From a virus, in the IMG/VR virus record IMGVR_UViG_3300010158_000188, positions 1-35,162 of that record: a stretch of DNA of 35,162 nt, one strand, 5' to 3'. How positions within the stretch are numbered: position 1 is the first letter of the stretch; each line of letters opens with the position of its first letter. The notes beneath the pieces are model-generated. The model saw nothing but the letters and a program-made list of their open reading frames with translations. It searched no databases and was not told the origin of the DNA. The position numbers and the translations under genes are program-made. Positions 1 to 20,535 of this stretch are shown here, in pieces.

Positions 1-141
1 AGCGCCGTATTACCAGTTGCCCTACGTGCCGCCAATCCAAAAGACGCGTCTTTCGGCAAGGTCGCTGACGTTGTTGAAATTGAATTAAATAAAGTGGCTA
101 AGGCTCCTATTAAAAAGAAGCCTGTCGCTAAAACTAAATAG
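1..141 (+). CDS. 3' end of an unidentified gene (partial)
   Basis: The first reading frame is open from the window edge to a TAG at 139-141, giving the last 46 residues of a protein whose start lies outside. The tail reads as a short ordered part (SAVLPVALRAANPKDASFGK) followed by a lysine/proline/alanine-rich end (KKKPVAKTK), typical of a flexible basic tail that may touch nucleic acid. No family can be recognised from this fragment, and it could belong to any early or replication protein upstream. Confidence 0.6.
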   Translation, partial: SAVLPVALRAANPKDASFGKVADVVEIELNKVAKAPIKKKPVAKTK

Positions 142-198
142 CGCTATTGCTTGAGCGGGGTAAGGGGAAGTATCCCGCTCAAGTTGTAGGCATTAAAA

Positions 199-285
199 AT
201 GGACACATTACTTACAAGCATTGTTCCGTTGGCCAGAGATATTGACGACGCCATTGACGAGTTTGAAAATATAGGAATTATTTAA
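199..285 (+). CDS. Possible 28-residue acidic peptide
   Basis: ATG to TAA, encoding MDTLLTSIVPLARDIDDAID followed by a short acidic/hydrophobic end. It fills the gap between the partial gene and the next clear gene. There is no convincing Shine-Dalgarno sequence (GTAGG about 9 bases upstream at best), so it is only a candidate. It could be an amphipathic regulatory peptide or simply noncoding sequence. Function unknown. Confidence 0.3.
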   Translation: MDTLLTSIVPLARDIDDAIDEFENIGII

Positions 286-346
286 CGCGTGTCGTAGAAC
301 ACGTTGGCGTGAAGTTGCTGGTACGCTTTCCCGTAAAGGGGGCAAC

Positions 347-583
347 ATGGGACTAGCAGATAAAATAGAACAAATAAGCGAAACCGTAAACGGCACTAAA
401 TGCGTTTATCAAGTAATGGTTGACGCTATGCCTAAAGATGAGCAAGAGGCTCTCCAGGCGGCCTGGGACAAAGGTTATTCGCAACGTATTATTTTGCGAG
501 CGCTTCGCTCAGAAGGTTACAAAACTAGCAACGAGGCAATACAAGGTCACAGGTCAGGCAGTTGTAAGTGTCAGAAAAAATAA
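347..583 (+). CDS. Small HTH-like protein with C-terminal Cys pair
   Basis: 78 residues, ATG preceded by a good ribosome site (AAAGGGGG, about 4 bases before the start). The first half contains a Cys-containing helical segment (GTKCVYQVMVDAM). The second half, GYSQRIILRALRSEGYKTSN, reads like the recognition part of a small helix-turn-helix in which a new position is tested for an arginine-rich half (GHRSG). It ends in a CKCQKK tail. Actinophages carry similar short proteins usually called HTH DNA-binding proteins. This assignment is by pattern only. It overlaps the next gene by 16 bases, so the two are probably co-translated. Confidence 0.7.
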   Translation: MGLADKIEQISETVNGTKCVYQVMVDAMPKDEQEALQAAWDKGYSQRIILRALRSEGYKTSNEAIQGHRSGSCKCQKK

Positions 584-819
584 AAGATATTCTTGACCAC
601 CGTCAAGAAATCTATGGTGACGCTGAGCAAAATTTTATGACAATTGGGCGTATTTGGGGAGCCTTATTAAATATCCCTGATATTCAACCACACGTAGTTG
701 CTTTAATGATGGACGGTCTTAAATCAGTTCGCTGCATAGCCAATCCGTTTTATCAAGATTCCTGGGACGACAAAGTCGGTTACATACAACACGCTAGGGA
801 GATACTCAATGGGTCTTGA
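568..819 (+). CDS. DUF6378 family protein (MazG-like fold suspected)
   Basis: 83 residues from a GTG start that overlaps the upstream gene. The pattern is that of the phage DUF6378 family: an early ILDHRQEIYGD, a central IGRIWGALL, a KS.R.IANP segment and a closing Y..DSWDD..GYIQHAREIL. The conserved acidic and lysine positions resemble all-alpha NTP pyrophosphohydrolases (MazG superfamily), so a role in trimming a nucleotide pool is possible but unproven. Length is normal for the family. It overlaps the phosphoesterase gene by 11 bases and probably belongs to the same transcript. Confidence 0.75.
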   Translation: MSEKIKDILDHRQEIYGDAEQNFMTIGRIWGALLNIPDIQPHVVALMMDGLKSVRCIANPFYQDSWDDKVGYIQHAREILNGS

Positions 820-1843
820 CAAACATTTTTCTGAACTTCCAGAAGGCATTGAGTCTAATGACATTATTGAATTGCGTAAAGCGCTCATGCGGACTCAAAA
901 AAAACTCATGGAAACCAAACAAAAAGTTGACGATTTAGTAGAAGCAACTCATAACGCGGCATACGACGCAACTCTCAGCGCGGGGCCAATTAACCCAGTT
1001 AATGCACCGACTCCAGTAAAAGGCAAAAAAACTGGAGAAGTTGCACTTATGCACATGACGGACTGGCAAGGTGCTAAGCGCACTACGTCCTATGACTCAA
1101 AAATTATGGAACAACGCGTAATGCAGTACATGGAAAAAGCGGTCAAGATTACAGAAATTCAAAGAGCAGACCACCCTGTTAAAGATTGCGTAATCATGTT
1201 TGGCGGCGACATGATTGAAGGTCTATTCAATTTTCCTGGACAAGCGTTTGAGATTGACTCAACTCTTTTTGAGCAATACGTAAACGTCTCCAGACTATGC
1301 GTGGACGTAGTGCGATATGCCTTAACTAATTTTGAAACCGTAACTGTGGTACCCGAATGGGGAAACCATGGCCGCATAGGTAGCAAGCGAGATAACGTCC
1401 CGCGCTCAGATAACTTTGACCGTATGTGTTACGAGTTGGCTAAACAATTATTACAAAATGAAAAGCGTCTTACCTGGCAGGATTGTCCTGAGGATATTCA
1501 ACGTGTAGTTATTGGCAATTACCGAGCGCTTTTAATTCACGGTGACGAGGTTGGTCGTAATGGTTTTGCTAGTCCAGGCGCAATTGTGCAGCACGCTAAC
1601 CGTTGGCGAAGCGGCTCGTATCCGTGGGAATTTAGAGACGTTTATATTGGGCATTATCACACTCACGCAGAATGGGCTATGGCCAACGGATTAGGTTCCG
1701 TTTATCAAACTGGCTCAACTGAGTCCGATAACCGATACGCGGGTGTAAACCTGGCAGCAAGCGCAACACCTTCACAGCGGTTGCATTTCATTGACCCAAA
1801 TAAAGGTCGCGTGACGGCAAGTTACAAGGTTTGGTTGGACTAA
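809..1843 (+). CDS. Calcineurin-like metallophosphoesterase
   Basis: 344 residues. After an N-terminal coiled segment (about residues 15-50) comes a complete two-metal phosphoesterase core: TDWQGAK (D85), FGGDMIEG (131-138), EWGNHGRIG (184-191), LIHGDE (242-247) and GHYHTH (281-286). In the first motif the usual DxH is replaced by DWQ, seen in some phage members. Cellular relatives include Mre11/SbcD nucleases and phosphatases; with no ATPase partner nearby, the substrate cannot be named. A phage DNA-end or nucleotide-processing role is a reasonable inference. The TAA overlaps the ATG of the FmdB-like gene, implying coupled translation. Confidence 0.88.
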   Translation: MGLDKHFSELPEGIESNDIIELRKALMRTQKKLMETKQKVDDLVEATHNAAYDATLSAGPINPVNAPTPVKGKKTGEVALMHMTDWQGAKRTTSYDSKIMEQRVMQYMEKAVKITEIQRADHPVKDCVIMFGGDMIEGLFNFPGQAFEIDSTLFEQYVNVSRLCVDVVRYALTNFETVTVVPEWGNHGRIGSKRDNVPRSDNFDRMCYELAKQLLQNEKRLTWQDCPEDIQRVVIGNYRALLIHGDEVGRNGFASPGAIVQHANRWRSGSYPWEFRDVYIGHYHTHAEWAMANGLGSVYQTGSTESDNRYAGVNLAASATPSQRLHFIDPNKGRVTASYKVWLD

Positions 1844-2019
1844 TGGCGGTCTATGAATATCAATGTTCAAACTGCAACACTGTGGCGGAATATGAATTTT
1901 CAATTCACCAAGGCGCTGCTCCAGCAATTGTCTGCCAGGCATGCGGTAAAGACGCGGCCCGTAAATTTTCTACTTTTGCAGCCGTATTTCGCGGCGGAGG
2001 TTGGGGAGGTTCAAAATGA
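1843..2019 (+). CDS. FmdB-type zinc ribbon protein
   Basis: 58 residues starting at the ATG inside the TAATG junction; an upstream TTG at 1831 is in frame but less likely. The fold signature is clear: VYEYQCSNC at the start, a second CQACG pair, and the family's C-terminal glycine-rich RGGGWGGSK. Four cysteines (CxxC ... CxxC) would bind one zinc. FmdB-like ribbons are common in Actinobacteria and their phages, where they are annotated as regulators without a defined target. The end overlaps the ribosome site and start of the GP88-like gene. Confidence 0.88.
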   Translation: MAVYEYQCSNCNTVAEYEFSIHQGAAPAIVCQACGKDAARKFSTFAAVFRGGGWGGSK

Positions 2020-2768
2020 AATATCATTTGACAAATGGTAACAGCGAGTTAAGAGCGGACGGTATATTCACGTGGACACTTCCCGCGCTTGCAGCAAAAC
2101 TTGATAATGGATTAAACGTTTTAGTTTGTCCTAATGCAGGGGCGTGCGCTCAGTTATGTTATGCCCGTTCTGGAACTTACAACTTTTCTAACGTTAAAGC
2201 GGCTCACAAAAGAAACCTTGAATTTGTCATGGGTGACTGGGTCAATGAAATGGTTATGGAGTTACGTTCTAAAAGATACAGGCCAACTCAAACCAAGGCC
2301 CGCTATTACGACTTGTTAAACCAGTCCTCATTAACTGAGTTTCAATTGAATTGGCTTAATTGGGGTGGCAAGGCAGTCCGTATTCACGACTCAGGAGACT
2401 TTTTTACCCGTAACTATTTCAAACAATGGTTGCAAGTTATAGAGCAAACCCCAGACGTTTTCTTTTACGCCTATACAAAAGAAGTTGAAATGACAAAAAA
2501 ATTTCAATTGCCGCAAAACTTAGTTTTAATTTATTCAATGGGTGGCAAGCAAGACCACCTAGTTAATAAAAAGTTAGATAGGCATGCGGAGGTCTTTCCG
2601 TCAATGGATTCTTTAGTTGAGGCTGGTTATTACGACCAAGAGGAGTCAGATATTTTGGCTGCACTTATGCCTTCAAATAAAGTTGGTATCGTGGCTAATA
2701 ACATAAAGCACCTTAAAAAGAAACAAGGTCAAGAAACTTTTGGAAGCCTTCAAGTCGCTAGAGGCTAA
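2016..2768 (+). CDS. GP88-family protein (actinophage gene product 88)
   Basis: 250 residues. The ATG at 2016 follows GGGGAGG with about 6 bases spacing, so it is preferred over an in-frame TTG at 2001. A cysteine cluster C38-x5-C44-x3-C48-Y is followed by ARSGTYNFSNV and KAAHKRNLEF, then RIHDSGDFF (around 124-132) and FFYAYTKE. This is the layout of the mycobacteriophage GP88 family. The cysteine spacing recalls radical-SAM or Fe-S proteins, but no function is established. It ends tail-to-tail with the leftward gene at 2765, overlapping it by 3-4 bases. Confidence 0.82.
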   Translation: MKYHLTNGNSELRADGIFTWTLPALAAKLDNGLNVLVCPNAGACAQLCYARSGTYNFSNVKAAHKRNLEFVMGDWVNEMVMELRSKRYRPTQTKARYYDLLNQSSLTEFQLNWLNWGGKAVRIHDSGDFFTRNYFKQWLQVIEQTPDVFFYAYTKEVEMTKKFQLPQNLVLIYSMGGKQDHLVNKKLDRHAEVFPSMDSLVEAGYYDQEESDILAALMPSNKVGIVANNIKHLKKKQGQETFGSLQVARG

Positions 2769-2959
2769 TCGTCTATATCGTCGTCAACCCAAACATTTTT
2801 AGTTGTAATGTCAATGTTATTGTCTTTTGCGAGTCCTATTGCAAACGTTAAAGCCTCTTGCGCTCGCGCCGTCATGTCATGCAAGGCGTCAGGGTGGTCT
2901 GCGGTGGAGTTAATCTCTACCCAGACTTGGTGCATGCTTATTTGAATTGAGGCGCTCAT
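2765..2959 (-). CDS. Small hypothetical protein, leftward
   Basis: 64 residues from ATG at 2959 (MSASIQISMHQVWVEINSTA). An in-frame TTG lies six codons upstream, but TGAGG directly before the ATG supports the shorter form. The protein is acidic at its C-terminus (VDDDIDD) and contains a beta-strand-like N-terminus and a helix around residues 26-48. No family recognised. A promoter-like sequence ends only 6 bases before the ATG, so the transcript may be leaderless. Convergent with the GP88-like gene. Confidence 0.7.
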   Translation of the reverse strand: MSASIQISMHQVWVEINSTADHPDALHDMTARAQEALTFAIGLAKDNNIDITTKNVWVDDDIDD

Positions 2960-2965
2960 GACCTC

Positions 2966-2993
2966 ATCATAAAGCAAGTTACGGTCAATACAA
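2966..2993 (-). promoter_or_regulatory. Promoter P6 (leftward), CGTAAC type
   Basis: On the minus strand: -35 TTGTAT (2993-2988), 16-base spacer containing ACCGTAACTTGC, -10 TATGAT (2971-2966). The spacer carries the same CGTAAC core found in five other promoters here. Only 6 bases separate the -10 from the ATG of the leftward gene at 2959, the geometry of a leaderless mRNA, which actinobacteria translate readily. Confidence 0.5.
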
Positions 2994-3000
2994 GAGGGCA

Positions 3001-3026
3001 GCAGAAACCCCTGCCGTAGCAGGGGT
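3001..3026 (-). terminator. Leftward terminator hairpin
   Basis: Perfect 8-bp stem ACCCCTGC/GCAGGGGT at 3007-3014 and 3019-3026 with a 4-base loop. On the minus strand it lies just after the stop of the 55-residue gene (3033) and is followed by TTTCTGC, a weak U-run. It should end the leftward two-gene transcript before the separately promoted gene at 2959. Confidence 0.7.
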
Positions 3027-3036
3027 AACTGGTTAC
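3025..3036. promoter_or_regulatory. Orphan GTAACTGGTTAC palindrome
   Basis: The 12-base perfect inverted repeat GTAACTGGTTAC (minus strand GTAACCAGTTAC) overlaps the stop codon of the leftward gene and touches the terminator. Read on the minus strand, CGTAACCAGTTACCC is identical to the spacer of promoter P3 at 10344-10358, but no -35 or -10 flanks it. This suggests a protein-binding site used away from a promoter. Confidence 0.45.
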
Positions 3037-3200
3037 GCGTTAAGGTTTTTGCTCAGCGCGTCTAAAAATTTGGCTTTAGGCTCAGTGGCCAACCAAGTTT
3101 CTTTTGCGGCCTCCATGCTGGTCGCAAAAATTGTGGCAAACTTTACATCTTTTGCAGCGGTTTCGCCTTCAAAATACCAGGCTAGTTCAAATACGTTCAT
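3033..3200 (-). CDS. Small hypothetical protein, leftward (55 residues)
   Basis: ATG at 3200 on the minus strand, TAA at 3035-3033. Reads MNVFELAWYFEGETAAKDVK and continues with a helix (SMEAAKETWLATEPKAKFLD). The ribosome site AGGAAGGGAATTAATA lies just before the start, inside the end of the upstream gene. It forms a two-gene leftward unit with 3203-3400, ended by the hairpin at 3007-3026. Function unknown. The size and the W/Y/F-rich N-terminus suit a small phage inhibitor or adaptor, but this is speculative. Confidence 0.7.
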   Translation of the reverse strand: MNVFELAWYFEGETAAKDVKFATIFATSMEAAKETWLATEPKAKFLDALSKNLNA

Positions 3201-3202
3201 TA

Positions 3203-3400
3203 TTAATTCCCTTCCTGTGCATTACATAAGTTGTCTAAAAACATGCCGTAAGCCTGTTTGCTTTCAAAACTAATGCGTATTTCATTACCCTCAGCGTCAC
3301 GTACTTCAAGGCGTATATCTCCAAAAAATTCTCTTGCTACGTAACTAACTGGCTTTAAGGTAACAATATGGGTGTCACCTGGTAACTGTGTAACGTTCAT
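3203..3400 (-). CDS. Small hypothetical protein, leftward (65 residues)
   Basis: ATG at 3400 on the minus strand, preceded by AGAAAGGC. The sequence suggests alternating beta strands (HIVTLKPVSYVAREFFGDIR, then IRISFESKQ) and a C-terminal helix (YGMFLDNLCNA). No family recognised. It is the first gene of the leftward operon driven by promoter P5; its ribosome site and spacing closely resemble those of the divergently transcribed gene at 3594. Confidence 0.75.
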   Translation of the reverse strand: MNVTQLPGDTHIVTLKPVSYVAREFFGDIRLEVRDAEGNEIRISFESKQAYGMFLDNLCNAQEGN

Positions 3401-3421
3401 TATTTTGCCTTTCTTGTTATG

Positions 3422-3435
3422 GGGCCTTGTTGCCC
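3422..3435 (-). ncRNA. 5' leader hairpin of the leftward transcript
   Basis: On the minus strand, GGGC-AACAAG-GCCC (4-bp stem, 6-base loop) lies about 11 bases after the P5 -10 box, i.e. near the predicted mRNA 5' end. The loop AACAAG nearly equals the AACAAC loop in the P2 leader at 7974-7979. Confidence 0.4.
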
Positions 3436-3445
3436 TAGTAAGTAA

Positions 3446-3473
3446 AGAATACCATAACTGGTTACGAAAGCAA
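3446..3473 (-). promoter_or_regulatory. Promoter P5 (leftward), CGTAACC type
   Basis: Minus strand: -35 TTGCTT (3473-3468), 16-base spacer with CGTAACCAGTTATGG, -10 TATTCT (3451-3446). The spacer from CGTAACC to TTATGG and the following TTTACTTA match promoter P4 at 11714-11741. It drives the two leftward genes 3400-3203 and 3200-3033. The palindrome-like GTAACCAGTTAT would place a DNA-binding protein between the two polymerase boxes. Confidence 0.65.
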
Positions 3474-3493
3474 GTCTATTGGGCAATTATTTT

Positions 3494-3509
3494 TGTGACG
3501 TTTATCACA
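3494..3509. promoter_or_regulatory. CRP-like palindrome between divergent promoters
   Basis: TGTGACGTTTATCACA is a perfect TGTGA-N6-TCACA inverted repeat, the textbook CRP/FNR-superfamily half-site arrangement. It lies between the -35 boxes of the divergent promoters P5 (ends 3473) and P1 (starts 3521). Its centre is about 54 bases from the expected P1 start and further from P5, so it could serve both. Whether a host CRP-like protein (GlxR/Crp type in actinobacteria) binds it is inference. Confidence 0.5.
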
Positions 3510-3520
3510 TGGTCAAATGC

Positions 3521-3549
3521 TTGTAAACCGTAACCTCTTGCCTTAGTCT
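3521..3549 (+). promoter_or_regulatory. Promoter P1 (rightward), CGTAACC type
   Basis: -35 TTGTAA (3521-3526), 17-base spacer ACCGTAACCTCTTGCCT, -10 TAGTCT (3544-3549). It shares TTGTAAACCGTAACC exactly with P2 at 7931. Expected start near 3556, leading into the rightward run beginning at 3594. Confidence 0.7.
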
Positions 3550-3559
3550 TGCTTTAACA

Positions 3560-3574
3560 GGTTGCGACGCAGCC
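3560..3574 (+). ncRNA. 5' leader hairpin after P1
   Basis: GGTTGC-GAC-GCAGCC folds as a 6-bp stem with one G-U pair and a 3-base loop, about 11 bases after the -10. It is followed by CCCAACAGAAAGG, so the stem sits between the predicted 5' end and the ribosome site. All five modules with an untranslated leader have a hairpin here. Confidence 0.4.
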
Positions 3575-3593
3575 CCAACAGAAAGGCAAGTAA

Positions 3594-3788
3594 ATGAGTT
3601 ACAAATTAGTTGACCAAAATGGCGCCAGGATTGCAGACCGCGTTAAGTTAATTTTTGTTTGCGATTTATGCGGTAATACTGCTGATTTTTACCATGGCAT
3701 GAGTACCTATTACAAAACCGTAAAAGGCGAAAAAACTCCTGAAAGTTATTGCTCTGAAATTTGCGTAAAAAAGGCGGTGGCCGCCTAA
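3594..3788 (+). CDS. Small zinc-ribbon-like protein
   Basis: 64 residues, ATG after AGAAAGG. A CDLC pair (residues 23-26) and a C-terminal CSEIC (52-56) separated by about 26 residues make a likely zinc site; a basic, tyrosine-rich middle (STYYKTVKGEK) lies between. No defined family. First gene behind promoter P1; its TAA overlaps the ATG of the next gene (TAATG). Confidence 0.8.
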   Translation: MSYKLVDQNGARIADRVKLIFVCDLCGNTADFYHGMSTYYKTVKGEKTPESYCSEICVKKAVAA

Positions 3789-13511: not shown

Positions 13512-13718
13512 GTGAACATTACCGAGGAAGTGTCCCTTGCTGAACTAGATGAGGCAATGGGGCACCTTGCTGAGCAGTTAAAAGACCGCTACGGCAATCG
13601 CTTAACATGGCAACGTAAAACCTTGCTCATGGAAAGCATGGACGATTTACTTGATTACAGGTTAATGCTTACGAAAGGCGAAAATGGAGACAGTAACAGC
13701 ATTGGTGGAAACTCTTAA
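13512..13718 (+). CDS. Helical hypothetical protein
   Basis: 68 residues from GTG 13512; no clear ribosome site, so the start may be later. Helical: EEVSLAELDEAMGHLAEQLK, then TLLMESMDDLLDYRLMLTKG. The C-terminal part overlaps the next gene by 35 bases, a larger overlap than elsewhere here. The protein could be a terminase- or DNA-binding accessory. Unrecognised. Confidence 0.62.
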   Translation: MNITEEVSLAELDEAMGHLAEQLKDRYGNRLTWQRKTLLMESMDDLLDYRLMLTKGENGDSNSIGGNS

Positions 13719-14262
13719 AGAGTATCCAGGGAACCCGCGTAAAGGCGATATTGACGCTATTGCTGAATCGTTGAAAGTTAATGGGCAATACAAGCCGATA
13801 GTTGTCCAGGAAAGCACTGGGTACGTTTTAGTCGGGAACCATACGCTCAAGGCAGCCCGTAAATTAGGTTGGGACTTTATTGAAACCGTGGAAGTTGATG
13901 TTGACGATGAAGGCGCTAAAAGAATTGTTTTAGCCGACAACCGTACAAGTGACGCCTCAACTTATGACTATGACCTTTTGGCTGAAATGTTAAAGTCGCT
14001 ACCCTCAATTAAAGGTACAGGCTATGACGCTGAGTCATTAAGTGCGTTACTTAACGAAGTCTCTGGAATTTTGCCTGAAATGCAAGAAAACGGCGTAACG
14101 GCAGGTTTAGGTACCCCGATTATTCATTACGACATTATTTTTGATACTGAGGAACAGCAAGTCGTTTGGCATAACTACTTGAAATGGCTAAGATTGCAAG
14201 AACCCGAAGGGCAAACAAATGCAGCGCGCATGGCATTGCACTTGAGAAAGGTTATGTCATGA
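13684..14262 (+). CDS. ParB/sulfiredoxin-like domain protein
   Basis: 192 residues. Typical ParB N-terminal domain: YPGNPRKGDIDAIAESLKVN, GQYKPIVVQ, YVLVGNHTLKAARKLGW (the GxHxLxAA loop, with N-H replacing E/G-HR) and VLADNRTSD. It lacks the central HTH of a chromosomal ParB, as in phage ParB-like proteins that bind CTP or work in DNA modification or as methyltransferase N-terminal modules. The C-terminal part (TPIIHYDIIFDTEEQQVVWH) resembles a segment often following such domains in phages. First gene of the modification-like cluster. Confidence 0.82.
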   Translation: METVTALVETLKEYPGNPRKGDIDAIAESLKVNGQYKPIVVQESTGYVLVGNHTLKAARKLGWDFIETVEVDVDDEGAKRIVLADNRTSDASTYDYDLLAEMLKSLPSIKGTGYDAESLSALLNEVSGILPEMQENGVTAGLGTPIIHYDIIFDTEEQQVVWHNYLKWLRLQEPEGQTNAARMALHLRKVMS

Positions 14263-14879
14263 GTACCTTGAAAAAATATCAAGATGAGTTAAAACTCAAA
14301 GGCGGCGTGTTGATTAAAGGGTTTGTTGAACCTAACGTTGCTCTTGAGTGGGCTGAGCGGGCCAAGGCTGGCATTCAATCAAGAATTGACCGCCCTGTAA
14401 TTGAAGCAAAAGAATTAGATGAAGGTGGAGAGCGTCACGGCAAAATTGCAGACGCGTTTGAAGCGGAAAAAGTATTGCCTGAAATTTTTGGTTTGTATCA
14501 AGGTGCCAGGTTATTTTTGTCAGAGTTAATTGAACGCCCTGTAATTTGTTCACCTTATCCACGAAGCACCGTAACGCTCAAAGTTTATGACCGCCCTGGA
14601 GACCAGCAAGGTTGGCACCGTGACACTAATCCATTGACAGCGTTACTTATTGCCACCGAGACCCTAGGCAATTACGGTACTGAAATTGAAGCGCGTGACG
14701 GCTCAGTATTTAATTTAGAAAACCAGCCAGGTGATTTATGGGTTATGTATGGCCGCGAATTACGCCATAGAGTGCCGTCTATTCCAGAAGGTAAGTGGCG
14801 AGTAACTATTCCGTTGAACTATTACCACCCAGACGATGTTTGGCGCCCTCAAGGTACCGATAATCTAATTTACGGATAA
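14259..14879 (+). CDS. 2OG-Fe(II)-dependent oxygenase
   Basis: 206 residues from the ATGA start at 14259; a longer frame from 14184 lies inside the previous gene. Fe ligands are H120 and D122 in QQGWHRDTNPL and H170 in ELRHRV; R181 in KWRVTIPLNYY binds 2-oxoglutarate. The double-stranded beta-helix strands around residues 105-185 fit the family. Substrate is unknown: hydroxylation of a nucleic-acid base, protein or small molecule are options. The neighbours (ParB-like and PAPS-reductase-like proteins) suggest a DNA or nucleotide substrate. The AlkB-type nucleotide recognition lid is not obvious. Confidence 0.83.
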   Translation: MSTLKKYQDELKLKGGVLIKGFVEPNVALEWAERAKAGIQSRIDRPVIEAKELDEGGERHGKIADAFEAEKVLPEIFGLYQGARLFLSELIERPVICSPYPRSTVTLKVYDRPGDQQGWHRDTNPLTALLIATETLGNYGTEIEARDGSVFNLENQPGDLWVMYGRELRHRVPSIPEGKWRVTIPLNYYHPDDVWRPQGTDNLIYG

Positions 14880-14881
14880 GC

Positions 14882-15946
14882 ATGCCAAGATATAAACGCT
14901 ATATTGAGGCGAACGTTTATGATGAAGCAAAAAAACGTTTACACCATATTTACGATACGCATGACAGCGTAGTCGTTGCATTTTCTGGCGGTAAAGACTC
15001 TCTTGCACTGTTGCATGTCACTAAAGAGGTTGCATTAGAACGCGGTCTAAAAAAAGTACACGCAGTTTTCCGTGATGAGGAAGTAATCCACCAACAAGTT
15101 GTTGATTTTGTCCGTGGATATATGGACGAGCCTTGGCTTGACCTTGCTTGGTGGACAGTACCGCTGCAATCGCACAAATTTATTCTTGGCAAAATGATGG
15201 ACTACACACAATGGGACCCTGACCGTCAATGGGTAAGACCAAAACCTGAGTGGGGTTTAACTGAGAAAGATTTAGATATACCGCTCAACACTCCACTTAC
15301 ACAGTATTCCGCAGACGACTTAATGATTCGCAACTTTCCTGGGAAGGTAGCAATACTTACTGGAGTACGCGCCGCTGAGTCAATGATTAGATTTAGGTCA
15401 TGCGTAAATAAACTTAACGAGAATTATATTAACGCGTGCAGTAGTCCAAGAGGAGTTTTAGCCAGGCCGATTTATGACTGGGTTGAAAATGACGTGTTTA
15501 AGTATTTTTATGACAACGATATTAAATATTGTCCTATTTACGACAACCAGTTATGGGCGCGACGTCAATTTAGAGTGGCAAGCGGTATAACAAGCGAAGC
15601 CTCCAGAGAATTTGGCAAAACACGCGAGTATGACCCTGACCTTTATGCAGCAATTATTGAGGTGTTTCCTGAAATTATTGTTCAAGAGCGTTATTACAAA
15701 GAATTAGACAAAGAGGCAATTATTAGGCAGTACGCCACGTCGTTTGACTCTATTGAACTCTGGATACAAGAAAACATTACTGACGAGCGCCAGTTCAAAA
15801 AAGCCATGAAAGAACTAGGCCGCGTAAAAGGGTTGGCCAAAATATCCCCAGGACTTTACCCGTTTGATTACGTACTCAAAAACTTTATGACTGAGGGCGG
15901 CAAGCGCAACATATTCCCACTAATTGTCAAGAAGGAGAAAATATGA
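14882..15946 (+). CDS. PAPS-reductase-like protein (COG3969/IbrA type)
   Basis: 354 residues. The PP-loop SGGKDS (35-40) follows HDSVVVAF, with the helical YEANVYDEAKKRL start and FRDEEVIHQQVVDFVR. Further marks: GVRAAESMIRFRSC and PIYDWVENDVFKYF. This is the phage/IbrA branch of the N-type ATP pyrophosphatases rather than a true sulfate-assimilation reductase, as the redox-active C-terminal ECGLH is absent. It is paired with an IbrB-like ParB protein directly downstream, as ibrA-ibrB occur in prophages of enterobacteria. Activity of the pair is not established. The end overlaps the next ATG. Confidence 0.88.
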   Translation: MPRYKRYIEANVYDEAKKRLHHIYDTHDSVVVAFSGGKDSLALLHVTKEVALERGLKKVHAVFRDEEVIHQQVVDFVRGYMDEPWLDLAWWTVPLQSHKFILGKMMDYTQWDPDRQWVRPKPEWGLTEKDLDIPLNTPLTQYSADDLMIRNFPGKVAILTGVRAAESMIRFRSCVNKLNENYINACSSPRGVLARPIYDWVENDVFKYFYDNDIKYCPIYDNQLWARRQFRVASGITSEASREFGKTREYDPDLYAAIIEVFPEIIVQERYYKELDKEAIIRQYATSFDSIELWIQENITDERQFKKAMKELGRVKGLAKISPGLYPFDYVLKNFMTEGGKRNIFPLIVKKEKI

Positions 15947-16500
15947 AAGACCCAATTAACGACATTGTTTGGCGCAACGTTGAGGAGTTAAGGGCCAATC
16001 ATTGGAACCCTAACCGCGTGCATAAAATGGAATTAAAACTACTTGAACACTCTTTACTTAGTACAGGTTGGATACAGCCAATTTTAACTAACGAGACTGG
16101 CCTTATCATTGACGGTTTTCACCGCTGGCGTTTATCCCAGGACAGTAAAGCGGTACGCGCTCGCTACGACGGCAAGGTTCCAGTAGCCACGCTTCCAGTT
16201 GACGACGCTACTGCTATGGCTATTACGGTACGCATTAACCGCGCCAAGGGAACACACGTTGCTATTGAAATGCACAATCTAGTGACGTCTTTAATTACTG
16301 AGCATGGCTGGACGCGTGAGCAAGTCGCAAAAGAAATTGGGGCAAACCTGGACGAAGTGGACGCATTGGCTCAAGAGGGTATTTTTGCCGCAAAAAAGAT
16401 AAAGGATTGGGGTTATAGCCACGCTTGGTATCCAGGCGAAGGCCCTGTCGGTGGTGAGGCTGGTACTCAATGGGCTAGAGAACAAGGGTTAAGTATTTAA
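15943..16500 (+). CDS. ParB-like protein, IbrB type
   Basis: 185 residues. WNPNRVHKMELKLLEHSLLS, GWIQPILTN, LIIDGFHRWRLSQ, VPVATLPVDDATAMAITVRI, NRAKGTH: the ParB/sulfiredoxin core with GFHRW as the phosphate/nucleotide loop and the RINRAKGTH motif of IbrB-type proteins. A small HTH-like C-terminal segment (GWTREQVAKEIGANLDEVDA) follows. ATGA overlap with the PAPS-reductase-like gene implies stoichiometric expression and a complex. Confidence 0.85.
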   Translation: MKDPINDIVWRNVEELRANHWNPNRVHKMELKLLEHSLLSTGWIQPILTNETGLIIDGFHRWRLSQDSKAVRARYDGKVPVATLPVDDATAMAITVRINRAKGTHVAIEMHNLVTSLITEHGWTREQVAKEIGANLDEVDALAQEGIFAAKKIKDWGYSHAWYPGEGPVGGEAGTQWAREQGLSI

Positions 16501-16502
16501 GC

Positions 16503-17066
16503 ATGAGGTTTAACGCGCCAGAATATCTTGAGGACTGGAAAAACGGGAAGTACCCAAATATCCATAAGATTATGTTTAACGCCGTAAAACTTTATGGCCA
16601 AGGCAATAACGTCTTGGACTTATGCTGCTCAACTGGATTACTTGGTACTCAAATTGCGGAGAAGTTAGGCAAAACCGTAATAGGTATTGAGTCAAGCCTA
16701 GTGTCAATTGACCTGGCTAAAGCGTATGGCATACCAATACCTATCCAGCAAATGAAATTGACTCGTGACACATTGGAACCTTTTGTAACCTTTTGTAACC
16801 TTTACTCAATTCAAACAATTGTTGCTAGACGCTGCATACCTGAGTTATTCGGTGAGGACTATGACTTTGGTTTAGAGTTTGTTGCAGCCATGGCCACCAT
16901 TGGAGTCAAAGAAATATTTTTGGAAGGCCGCGTTAAAACAGCAAACGCCACAAATATATTTAACTCAGTTGAACACGAAATAGACTTGTTTAATACTTAT
17001 GACATGTATAAGGTTACGAAAAGATTAGGAAACATAGGTTATTTAACTTTATCGGAGGCGATATGA
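16503..17066 (+). CDS. SAM-dependent methyltransferase-like protein
   Basis: 187 residues. NVLDLCCSTGLLGTQIAE (37-54) is motif I, and VIGIESSLVSIDLAKAY (59-75) with E63 contacts the SAM ribose. No DPPY/NPPF or PC motif typical of DNA amino- or cytosine-methyltransferases is present; after VARRCIPELFG the rest is unremarkable. The catalytic residue is therefore unassigned; it could methylate a nucleotide, protein or an intermediate made by the neighbours. Last gene of the modification-like cluster, overlapping the following HNH gene. Confidence 0.7.
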   Translation: MRFNAPEYLEDWKNGKYPNIHKIMFNAVKLYGQGNNVLDLCCSTGLLGTQIAEKLGKTVIGIESSLVSIDLAKAYGIPIPIQQMKLTRDTLEPFVTFCNLYSIQTIVARRCIPELFGEDYDFGLEFVAAMATIGVKEIFLEGRVKTANATNIFNSVEHEIDLFNTYDMYKVTKRLGNIGYLTLSEAI

Positions 17067-17515
17067 CAGTTAACCCATACAACGGGTTCCCAGGAGCGTA
17101 CAGAACAAAGCAAGCCAACAAGCAACGGACATTATTTGCAAGCGGGAAACTTAGGAAACCTATCTCCTGTAAAGCATGTAACTTAACTGAGCAAGAAGGC
17201 GCCACAATACACTCACACAGCGAAGACTACTCCAACCTATATGAAACTTTTGGCGTGTGTTTCTCTTGCCACATGGCTATCCATAGACGGTTTAAGGATT
17301 TACCAACTTGGCAAAAATGGTGTGACTTAATCTCTGACGGCTGGCAACCGCCTTATGGCCGCAACTATGAAACGTTCCTAGAAACTTGGTATGGAGTAAG
17401 CCGCGAAATAGTAGAGCGACCTAATGCGTTAAACTGGTTACACTCTTTACCATTAGAGGAACCAAACCTCTACAACCCGAACGAAGGACAATTGTGGGAC
17501 GTACAACAATCTTAA
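17063..17515 (+). CDS. HNH-like nuclease beside the terminase genes
   Basis: 150 residues. CKAC (36-39), IHSHSEDYS (49-57) and CFSCHMAIHRRF (66-77) form the zinc-held beta-beta-alpha fold of an HNH nuclease with the HxHxEDY variant. The C-terminal part (WQKWCDLISDGWQPP, WYGVSREIVERP) is helical and tryptophan-rich. HNH proteins directly upstream of small and large terminase genes are needed for cos cleavage in several HK97-like phages; the same is likely here. It overlaps terS by 22 bases. Confidence 0.78.
   Translation: MTVNPYNGFPGAYRTKQANKQRTLFASGKLRKPISCKACNLTEQEGATIHSHSEDYSNLYETFGVCFSCHMAIHRRFKDLPTWQKWCDLISDGWQPPYGRNYETFLETWYGVSREIVERPNALNWLHSLPLEEPNLYNPNEGQLWDVQQS

Positions 17516-19872: not shown

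Positions 19873-19876
<4 letters not shown>
19529..19876 (+). CDS. Virion structural protein, BppU-like N-domain type
   Basis: 115 residues. [35 protein letters not shown], then [20 protein letters not shown] and QGQLTVL: the immunoglobulin-like beta sandwich found at the start of phage baseplate/fibre proteins (BppU-type) and head-fibre anchors. It probably anchors the downstream collagen-like fibre. GGGGAGA ribosome site; ATGA overlap with the next gene. Confidence 0.7.

Positions 19877-20535
<659 letters not shown>

Follow-up and report, generated by a model that had tools for sequence, protein, structure and literature searches.

What is the function of the compact run of genes that abuts the terminase genes in the 35,162-base IMG/VR virus record IMGVR_UViG_3300010158_000188 (the window, i.e. 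the whole stretch of DNA analysed)? The genes encode two ParB-type proteins (ParB1 and ParB2), an Fe(II)/2-oxoglutarate oxygenase (OXY), an IbrA-like protein with the fold of 3'-phosphoadenosine 5'-phosphosulfate (PAPS) reductase (IbrA), a protein with the fold of S-adenosylmethionine (SAM) methyltransferases (MT) and a small HNH-like zinc protein. The original prediction, a reading made from the sequence of the window, had described the first five as overlapping or adjacent genes at 13684-17066. Their open reading frames (ORFs) and ATGA overlaps are present as described and the five genes are real, but the HNH-like gene at 17063-17515 had been overlooked. We consider a phage cassette for DNA-base hypermodification to be the best explanation of the genes at 13684-17515, and a probable one. 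It is based on the observed co-inheritance of the genes, their order, the alternation of two capping enzymes, the sharing of a genomic slot and of ParB1 with preQ0-type cassettes, the protein folds and the intact motifs. The earlier proposal of a single functional unit for DNA modification thus stands as the best reading, although it missed the link of ParB1 to other cassettes. No description of the cassette was found in the literature searched, which comprised open-licence papers.

Relatives of IbrA were gathered from IMG/VR, phage records and GTDB genomes, and profiles of the cassette genes were run on 111 loci, 66 of which are contexts complete on both sides (gene calls in the IMG/VR loci are mechanical ORFs). 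The gene order ParB1-IbrA-ParB2-(MT or GNAT acyltransferase)-HNH-like is found again and again in phages that are not related to one another, as a rule next to the terminase. ParB2 was present in all complete contexts (66/66), ParB1 in nearly all (63/66) and the HNH-like gene in most (46/66), while GNAT was detected in 30, MT in 19 and OXY in 4. The oxygenase and the methyltransferase are thus not the fixed additions to an IbrA/IbrB pair that had been proposed: the MT slot is more often occupied by a GNAT and OXY is rare. About 500 kb outside the cassette on the same contigs gave a background of one match each for MT and ParB2, four for the HNH-like gene, nine for ParB1 and none for the GNAT and OXY profiles. 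Terminase genes abut the cassette of the window and, among annotated phages, those of Salgado, Phlyer and prophi79-1; as judged by eye from ORF sequences, they lie beside it in many IMG/VR loci too. The terminase families vary among the loci, and the HNH-like gene and ParB2 vary in order or strand.

Because the census begins from IbrA, reverse searches were also run. Relatives of MT were found in 17 phage records, all of which fit the cassette: ParB or PAPS features lie under the match in 15 of them, and of the other two, prophi79-1 was confirmed by inspection and Waltz has a ParB1 match about 1.7 kb upstream. All nine IMG/VR loci with an OXY relative have it inside the cassette (one being cut at the left contig end); OXY occurs in five lineages and was never seen outside the cassette. 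HNH-like relatives were found in five phage records, and both of those inspected adjoin IbrA. The phage records with IbrA (215) and with ParB2 (222) come from nearly the same genera, with equal counts in the main genera, and ParB2 is an obligate partner of IbrA. The genes therefore co-occur widely, as a cluster with one function had been expected to. Alignments were needed for these searches, since single-sequence scans for OXY, MT and ParB2 in IMG/VR gave nothing or short domain matches. A search of 50,697 phage records with OXY, and with three diverged homologues as further queries, gave no match, and nothing was found in a scan of genome contigs with OXY.

MT and GNAT (Pfam Acetyltransf) alternate at one slot, which follows ParB2 or, in lineages with an altered order, IbrA. 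Among 71 loci dereplicated by IbrA sequence (<80% identity), 37 carry GNAT, 19 carry MT, 15 carry neither and none carries both; truncation, or divergence beyond the reach of the profiles, may account for some of the 15 capless loci. The hypergeometric chance of zero overlap is 2e-8, a figure that ignores relatedness. The IbrA tree is a stronger argument for alternation: the cap label changes 17 times on it, with at least 11 of the changes forced by well-supported branches, and the labels cluster no more than shuffled labels do, on what is a quick tree with 23 of its 68 inner branches weak. L002, the locus nearest to the window, also has OXY, and it is precisely in the cap slot that the two differ, with GNAT in L002 and MT in the window. 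From the alternation at one slot we infer that the two enzymes would cap one shared acceptor, an amine or a hydroxyl. Their swapping, about 17 times and never with both present, would be a trace left in nature by the competition of two chemistries for that acceptor, and its recurrence predicts a modification that phages alter to evade recognition. The cassette GNAT has no detectable sequence relation to Mom of phage Mu, a GNAT-fold enzyme that modifies phage DNA just before packaging; the window has MT instead.

ParB1 and the slot before the terminase connect the cassette with DNA modification. The N-terminal 130-150 residues of ParB1 are homologous to the first gene of TGT/preQ0 cassettes (window ParB1 versus Laurie gp1: 41% over 150 amino acids, E 7e-23), and its C-terminal domain (Y-x-I-x-FD...QQ...W) was found complete only in IbrA-linked members. 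Among the relatives of ParB1 are ParB domains of genes that carry the annotation DNA methyltransferase, and in Vincenzo gp1 (L198:1-1440) a ParB1-type domain is fused to an apparent DNA methyltransferase (CPPY, by eye). The slot was compared among cluster-B mycobacteriophages (Bclasvirinae), with Laurie, and not Rosebush itself, as the source of the preQ0 gene order. Immediately upstream of the terminase lie ParB-TGT-QueC-QueD-QueE-FolE in Laurie (Rosebushvirus), ParB-TGT-glycosyltransferase-deacetylase-adenylate kinase in Indlovu, ParB-TGT in Heath and ParB1-IbrA-ParB2 in Phlyer; in ABU the slot holds adenylate kinase only. Rosebush encodes the same preQ0 pathway genes, and its DNA contains dPreQ0 at about 28% of G (PMC6884629). 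The cassette of the window is like the Rosebush type in its pre-terminase slot, in the family of its first gene, in its multi-enzyme make-up and in having a PP-loop enzyme. It differs in that this enzyme is IbrA and not QueC, and in its additional caps and oxygenase. None of TGT, QueD, QueE and FolE was found among the six cassette genes, in scans that covered some of the ORFs of the window.

A gene annotated as a carboxylate deaminase adjoins gp1 of Vincenzo in the same pre-terminase slot. N-acetylglucosamine deacetylase and adenylate kinase genes occupy the slot in Rich (L197) and Indlovu (L199), both at 1-3600; with a glycosyltransferase annotated in Indlovu, these cassettes possibly make a glycosylated deazaguanine. 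SAM synthetase genes lie close upstream of cassettes bearing both MT and OXY (L186:807-1892, L189:810-1895 and L096:2-1084, the last open at the left contig edge; the Pfam scan covered the L186 copy only), which is consistent with heavy SAM use.

The genes of the cassette are listed in Table 1. Start-stop ATGA overlaps were found at 14259 (ParB1/OXY), 15943 (IbrA/ParB2) and 17063 (MT/HNH-like), the remaining junctions being gaps of a few bases, and the HNH-like gene overlaps the small terminase gene of the window. The mechanical ORF list begins the second gene at 14184, whereas the coupled start is 14259. Family searches agree with the original prediction on two ParB-type proteins, a PP-loop PAPS-reductase-like protein, a 2-oxoglutarate-iron oxygenase and a methyltransferase.

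Table 1. Cassette genes in the window, with family matches (E-values) and predicted folds
Gene	Position	Strand	Features
ParB1	13684..14262	+	ParB/Srx-fold; ParB_N 3.7e-5 (just below Pfam cut-off); phrog_723 3.8e-49
OXY	14259..14879	+	Fe(II)/2-oxoglutarate oxygenase, BesD/HalB/HalD-like fold; Pfam HalD above cut-off; optional member
IbrA-like	14882..15946	+	PP-loop (SGGKDS) ATP pyrophosphatase, PAPS-reductase fold; PAPS_reduct 3.8e-13; phrog_2302 2e-110
ParB2 (IbrB-like)	15943..16500	+	ParB/Srx-fold; ParB_N 1.1e-4 (just below Pfam cut-off); phrog_2159 4.6e-70
MT	16503..17066	+	class I SAM methyltransferase fold; weak methyltransferase matches; phrog_11826 2.9e-28
HNH-like small zinc protein	17063..17515	+	CxxC...HxE[DE]Y...CxxCHxxxH; sixth cassette gene

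IbrA and ParB2 form the proposed ATP-activating core of the cassette. The PP-loop motif is kept in 102/102 full-length IbrA homologues and is predicted to offer ATP-dependent activation. No cysteine is invariant among these homologues, the best being C217 (88%), so that the thiol chemistry by which PAPS reductase and DndC work is not conserved; given C217, some members may have a sulfur role. DndC, which acts in DNA phosphorothioation, is similar to IbrA in its PP-loop fold, its DNA-modification context and its ParB-fold partner DndB. However, the cysteines that DndC requires for its Fe-S cluster and for sulfur transfer (PMC10853773), including the cysteine dyad, are absent from IbrA, and the cassette has no DndA, DndD or DndE. 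The G[FY]HR motif of ParB2, which reads DGFHR in the window, is present at 103 of 104 loci; it resembles the nucleotide-binding motif of sulfiredoxin/SerK-like members of the fold. The ParB2 model also matches a gene of RHph_I4 annotated as IbrB (3e-47) and the partners of IbrA in Streptococcus phage 94 and Pseudoalteromonas phage XCL1123.

The label IbrA-like is apt as far as a PAPS-reductase fold beside a ParB partner is concerned, but DUF3440 (PF11922), which is found in the classical IbrA of phages 94 and XCL1123, was not found in the window IbrA at E up to 0.1. The protein was accordingly rejected as a classical DUF3440 IbrA, even though a ParB-fold IbrB partner adjoins it. The cassette moreover adds ParB1, a cap enzyme and an HNH-like gene, none of which lies beside the two classical pairs inspected (phage 94 and XCL1123). 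An ectoine synthase gene is located between the DUF3440-type IbrA and its ParB2 partner in XCL1123 (L201:4598-4990), and a second PP-loop/PAPS-reductase-like protein (by eye; no Pfam match at 0.01) is encoded just downstream of an OXY-bearing cassette at L047:6578-7435.

The oxygenase has the H120-D122-H170 motif named in the original prediction. Both histidines are invariant and position 122 is D or E in the five homologues, so that the iron site is HxD or HxE, i.e. of the hydroxylase type and not the HxG/A of halogenases. The OXY model (pLDDT 89) is closest to BesD, HalA, HalB, HalD and the BesD-like lysine hydroxylase 7jsd, with Z scores of 21.2-22.2 (22 for BesD/HalB/HalD and 7jsd, across 200 residues), whereas no other family exceeds 17.8, and BFVD contains a close structural match (A0A516L8B1, TM 0.90). 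Besides the iron site, OXY differs from BesD, HalB and HalD in its phage context and at the lysine-binding positions: in an alignment based on the HalB sequence, S103, Q117 and T123 stand where BesD has its lysine-binding residues E120, H134 and D140. A TET-like dioxygenase was rejected as a relative, because the match was C-terminal only (E 0.12) and the 50 best structural matches included no such enzyme. A SET-domain gene lies between ParB1 and OXY at L105:5311-6333, and also in L191 and L192. In its AlphaFold2 model (pLDDT 95), MT shows the class I fold in a generic form, with Z 14-16 to many class I enzymes, and these ties left the fold search without a specific relative; VARR..PE and EGR are conserved in the MT alignment. 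The motif of the HNH-like protein (Table 1) is invariant.

We infer that the substrate is DNA, and the adduct, the order of the steps, their timing and the protective role are proposed on the same footing. ParB1 would bring the machinery to DNA, a role common to the ParB proteins of TGT/preQ0 cassettes and of ParB-methyltransferase fusions. IbrA and ParB2 with its DGFHR motif would use ATP to activate the base or a group on it and would couple to it a small nucleophile, for which an amine, for instance an amino acid, is the likeliest candidate. OXY, if present, would hydroxylate the adduct or its precursor, and the last step would be a methyl cap added by MT or, in other phages, an acyl cap added by GNAT. 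In the same pathway, the small HNH-like zinc protein would act as a nuclease or as a factor that binds DNA. The base is probably modified at a late stage, ahead of packaging, and the DNA would thereby be shielded from restriction; a swap of the cap would alter the appearance of the DNA to modification-sensing nucleases.

A more specific proposal, possible but rather doubtful in our estimate, is a novel class of DNA base, to which the PP-loop enzyme would join an adduct resembling an amino acid, possibly a diamino acid, before optional hydroxylation by the BesD-like OXY and a methyl or acyl cap. It is suggested by the BesD-like fold of OXY, the ectoine synthase gene of XCL1123, the SET-domain gene of L105 and the precedent of CmoY. 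TilS, which makes lysidine in tRNA, is a model for an amino-acid-like adduct on a DNA base. In the CmoX/CmoY phage pathway, which ParBc genes accompany, glycine is attached to a cytosine derivative of virion DNA by an ATP-dependent amide ligase (PMC12783734). The pathway of Synechococcus phage S-B43 (CmoA/CmoX/CmoY, yielding 5-carboxymethylcytosine-glycine) is thus similar to the cassette in combining an ATP-dependent ligase with tailoring on phage DNA, often with ParBc nearby. Nevertheless, CmoY is an asparagine-synthetase homologue and not PAPS-reductase-like, and the cassette has no CmoX-like cytosine carboxymethyltransferase. If the amino-acid adduct exists, the decoration would be modular, with the cap exchanged between phages as a disguise akin to antigenic variation.

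Several points weigh against DNA hypermodification. The chemistry of the cassette is deduced from its genes, and the census was seeded on IbrA. The sharing of the slot could instead mean that insertions are tolerated at this site before the terminase. No MT, GNAT or HNH-like gene was detected in Phlyer, so the cap is not universal. By its model, OXY has its nearest fold relatives among enzymes acting on free amino acids, and this amino-acid link is itself weak because the lysine-binding residues of BesD are not conserved. MT lacks the [DNS]PP[YFW] and PC motifs of DNA methyltransferases (alignment, by eye), and its fold neighbours are generic and mostly small-molecule enzymes. PP-loop enzymes also modify tRNA: TilS, TtcA and MnmA share the PP-loop ATPase fold, and GNAT, methyltransferase and 2-oxoglutarate oxygenase steps occur in tRNA pathways as well. 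RNA could hence be what the cassette modifies, tRNA anticodons for instance, as a means of escaping host defences that target RNA. MT has a weak match to the tRNA methyltransferase family phrog_4752, a gene in the same slot of Gordonia phage Fresco is annotated as a tRNA-methyltransferase, and the rRNA methyltransferase Bud23 is among the Foldseek neighbours of MT. We nevertheless regard an RNA substrate as unlikely, since there are two ParB proteins, one of them common to DNA-modification cassettes and fused to DNA methyltransferases, and since the cassette replaces a preQ0-type cassette beside the terminase.

The frequency of the HNH-like gene and its invariant motif would also suit a restriction-modification-like unit, in which phage DNA is protected and the HNH-like protein cuts unmodified DNA of the host or of competitors. 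This is quite improbable: the gene is absent from Phlyer and several other lineages, its nuclease activity is putative, and HNH genes next to terminases often serve packaging. A role in packaging or end processing at the terminase, instead of modification throughout the genome, could be proposed from the position of the cassette, but it is highly improbable, as the terminase families differ, the HNH-like gene and ParB2 shift between loci, and packaging calls for no SAM supply, oxidation or acylation. That the proteins are co-activators of gene expression like E. coli IbrA/IbrB, as the annotation of Rhizobium phage RHph_I4 (co-activator of prophage gene expression IbrA/IbrB) would have it, is very unlikely. 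The window protein lacks the DUF3440 carried by the classical phage relatives, and the conserved SGGKDS, DGFHR and HxD...H motifs speak for catalysis, as does the exchange of one group-transfer enzyme for another. Hardly credible is an auxiliary metabolic gene for sulfur assimilation (cysH), for which the PAPS_reduct domain and the listing of phage cysH among such genes (PMC10434257) could be adduced. The ParB partners are obligate, and IbrA was rejected as a sulfur-assimilation PAPS reductase (CysH) because PAPS_reduct and SGGKDS are present but the conserved catalytic cysteine is absent.

Viral PAPS reductase/cysH genes are usually read as auxiliary genes of sulfur metabolism, while the context of this subfamily speaks for DNA modification, a reading that would change the interpretation of cysH annotations in viromes. 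Cultured members of the family, among phages of Arthrobacter, Mycobacterium smegmatis and Bacillus subtilis, make the question testable, with the sister phages Rosebush (preQ0) and ABU as positive and negative controls, respectively. Arthrobacter phages Salgado and Laroye and Bacillus phage 055SW001 have cassettes of the MT type, and Mycobacterium phage Phlyer has the core only. Elsewhere in the window, a protein of the GP88 family (Pfam PF17338) is encoded at 2001-2768, and a collagen-like protein with long repeats of the G-A-T type is encoded at 19873-20535, after the terminase genes.

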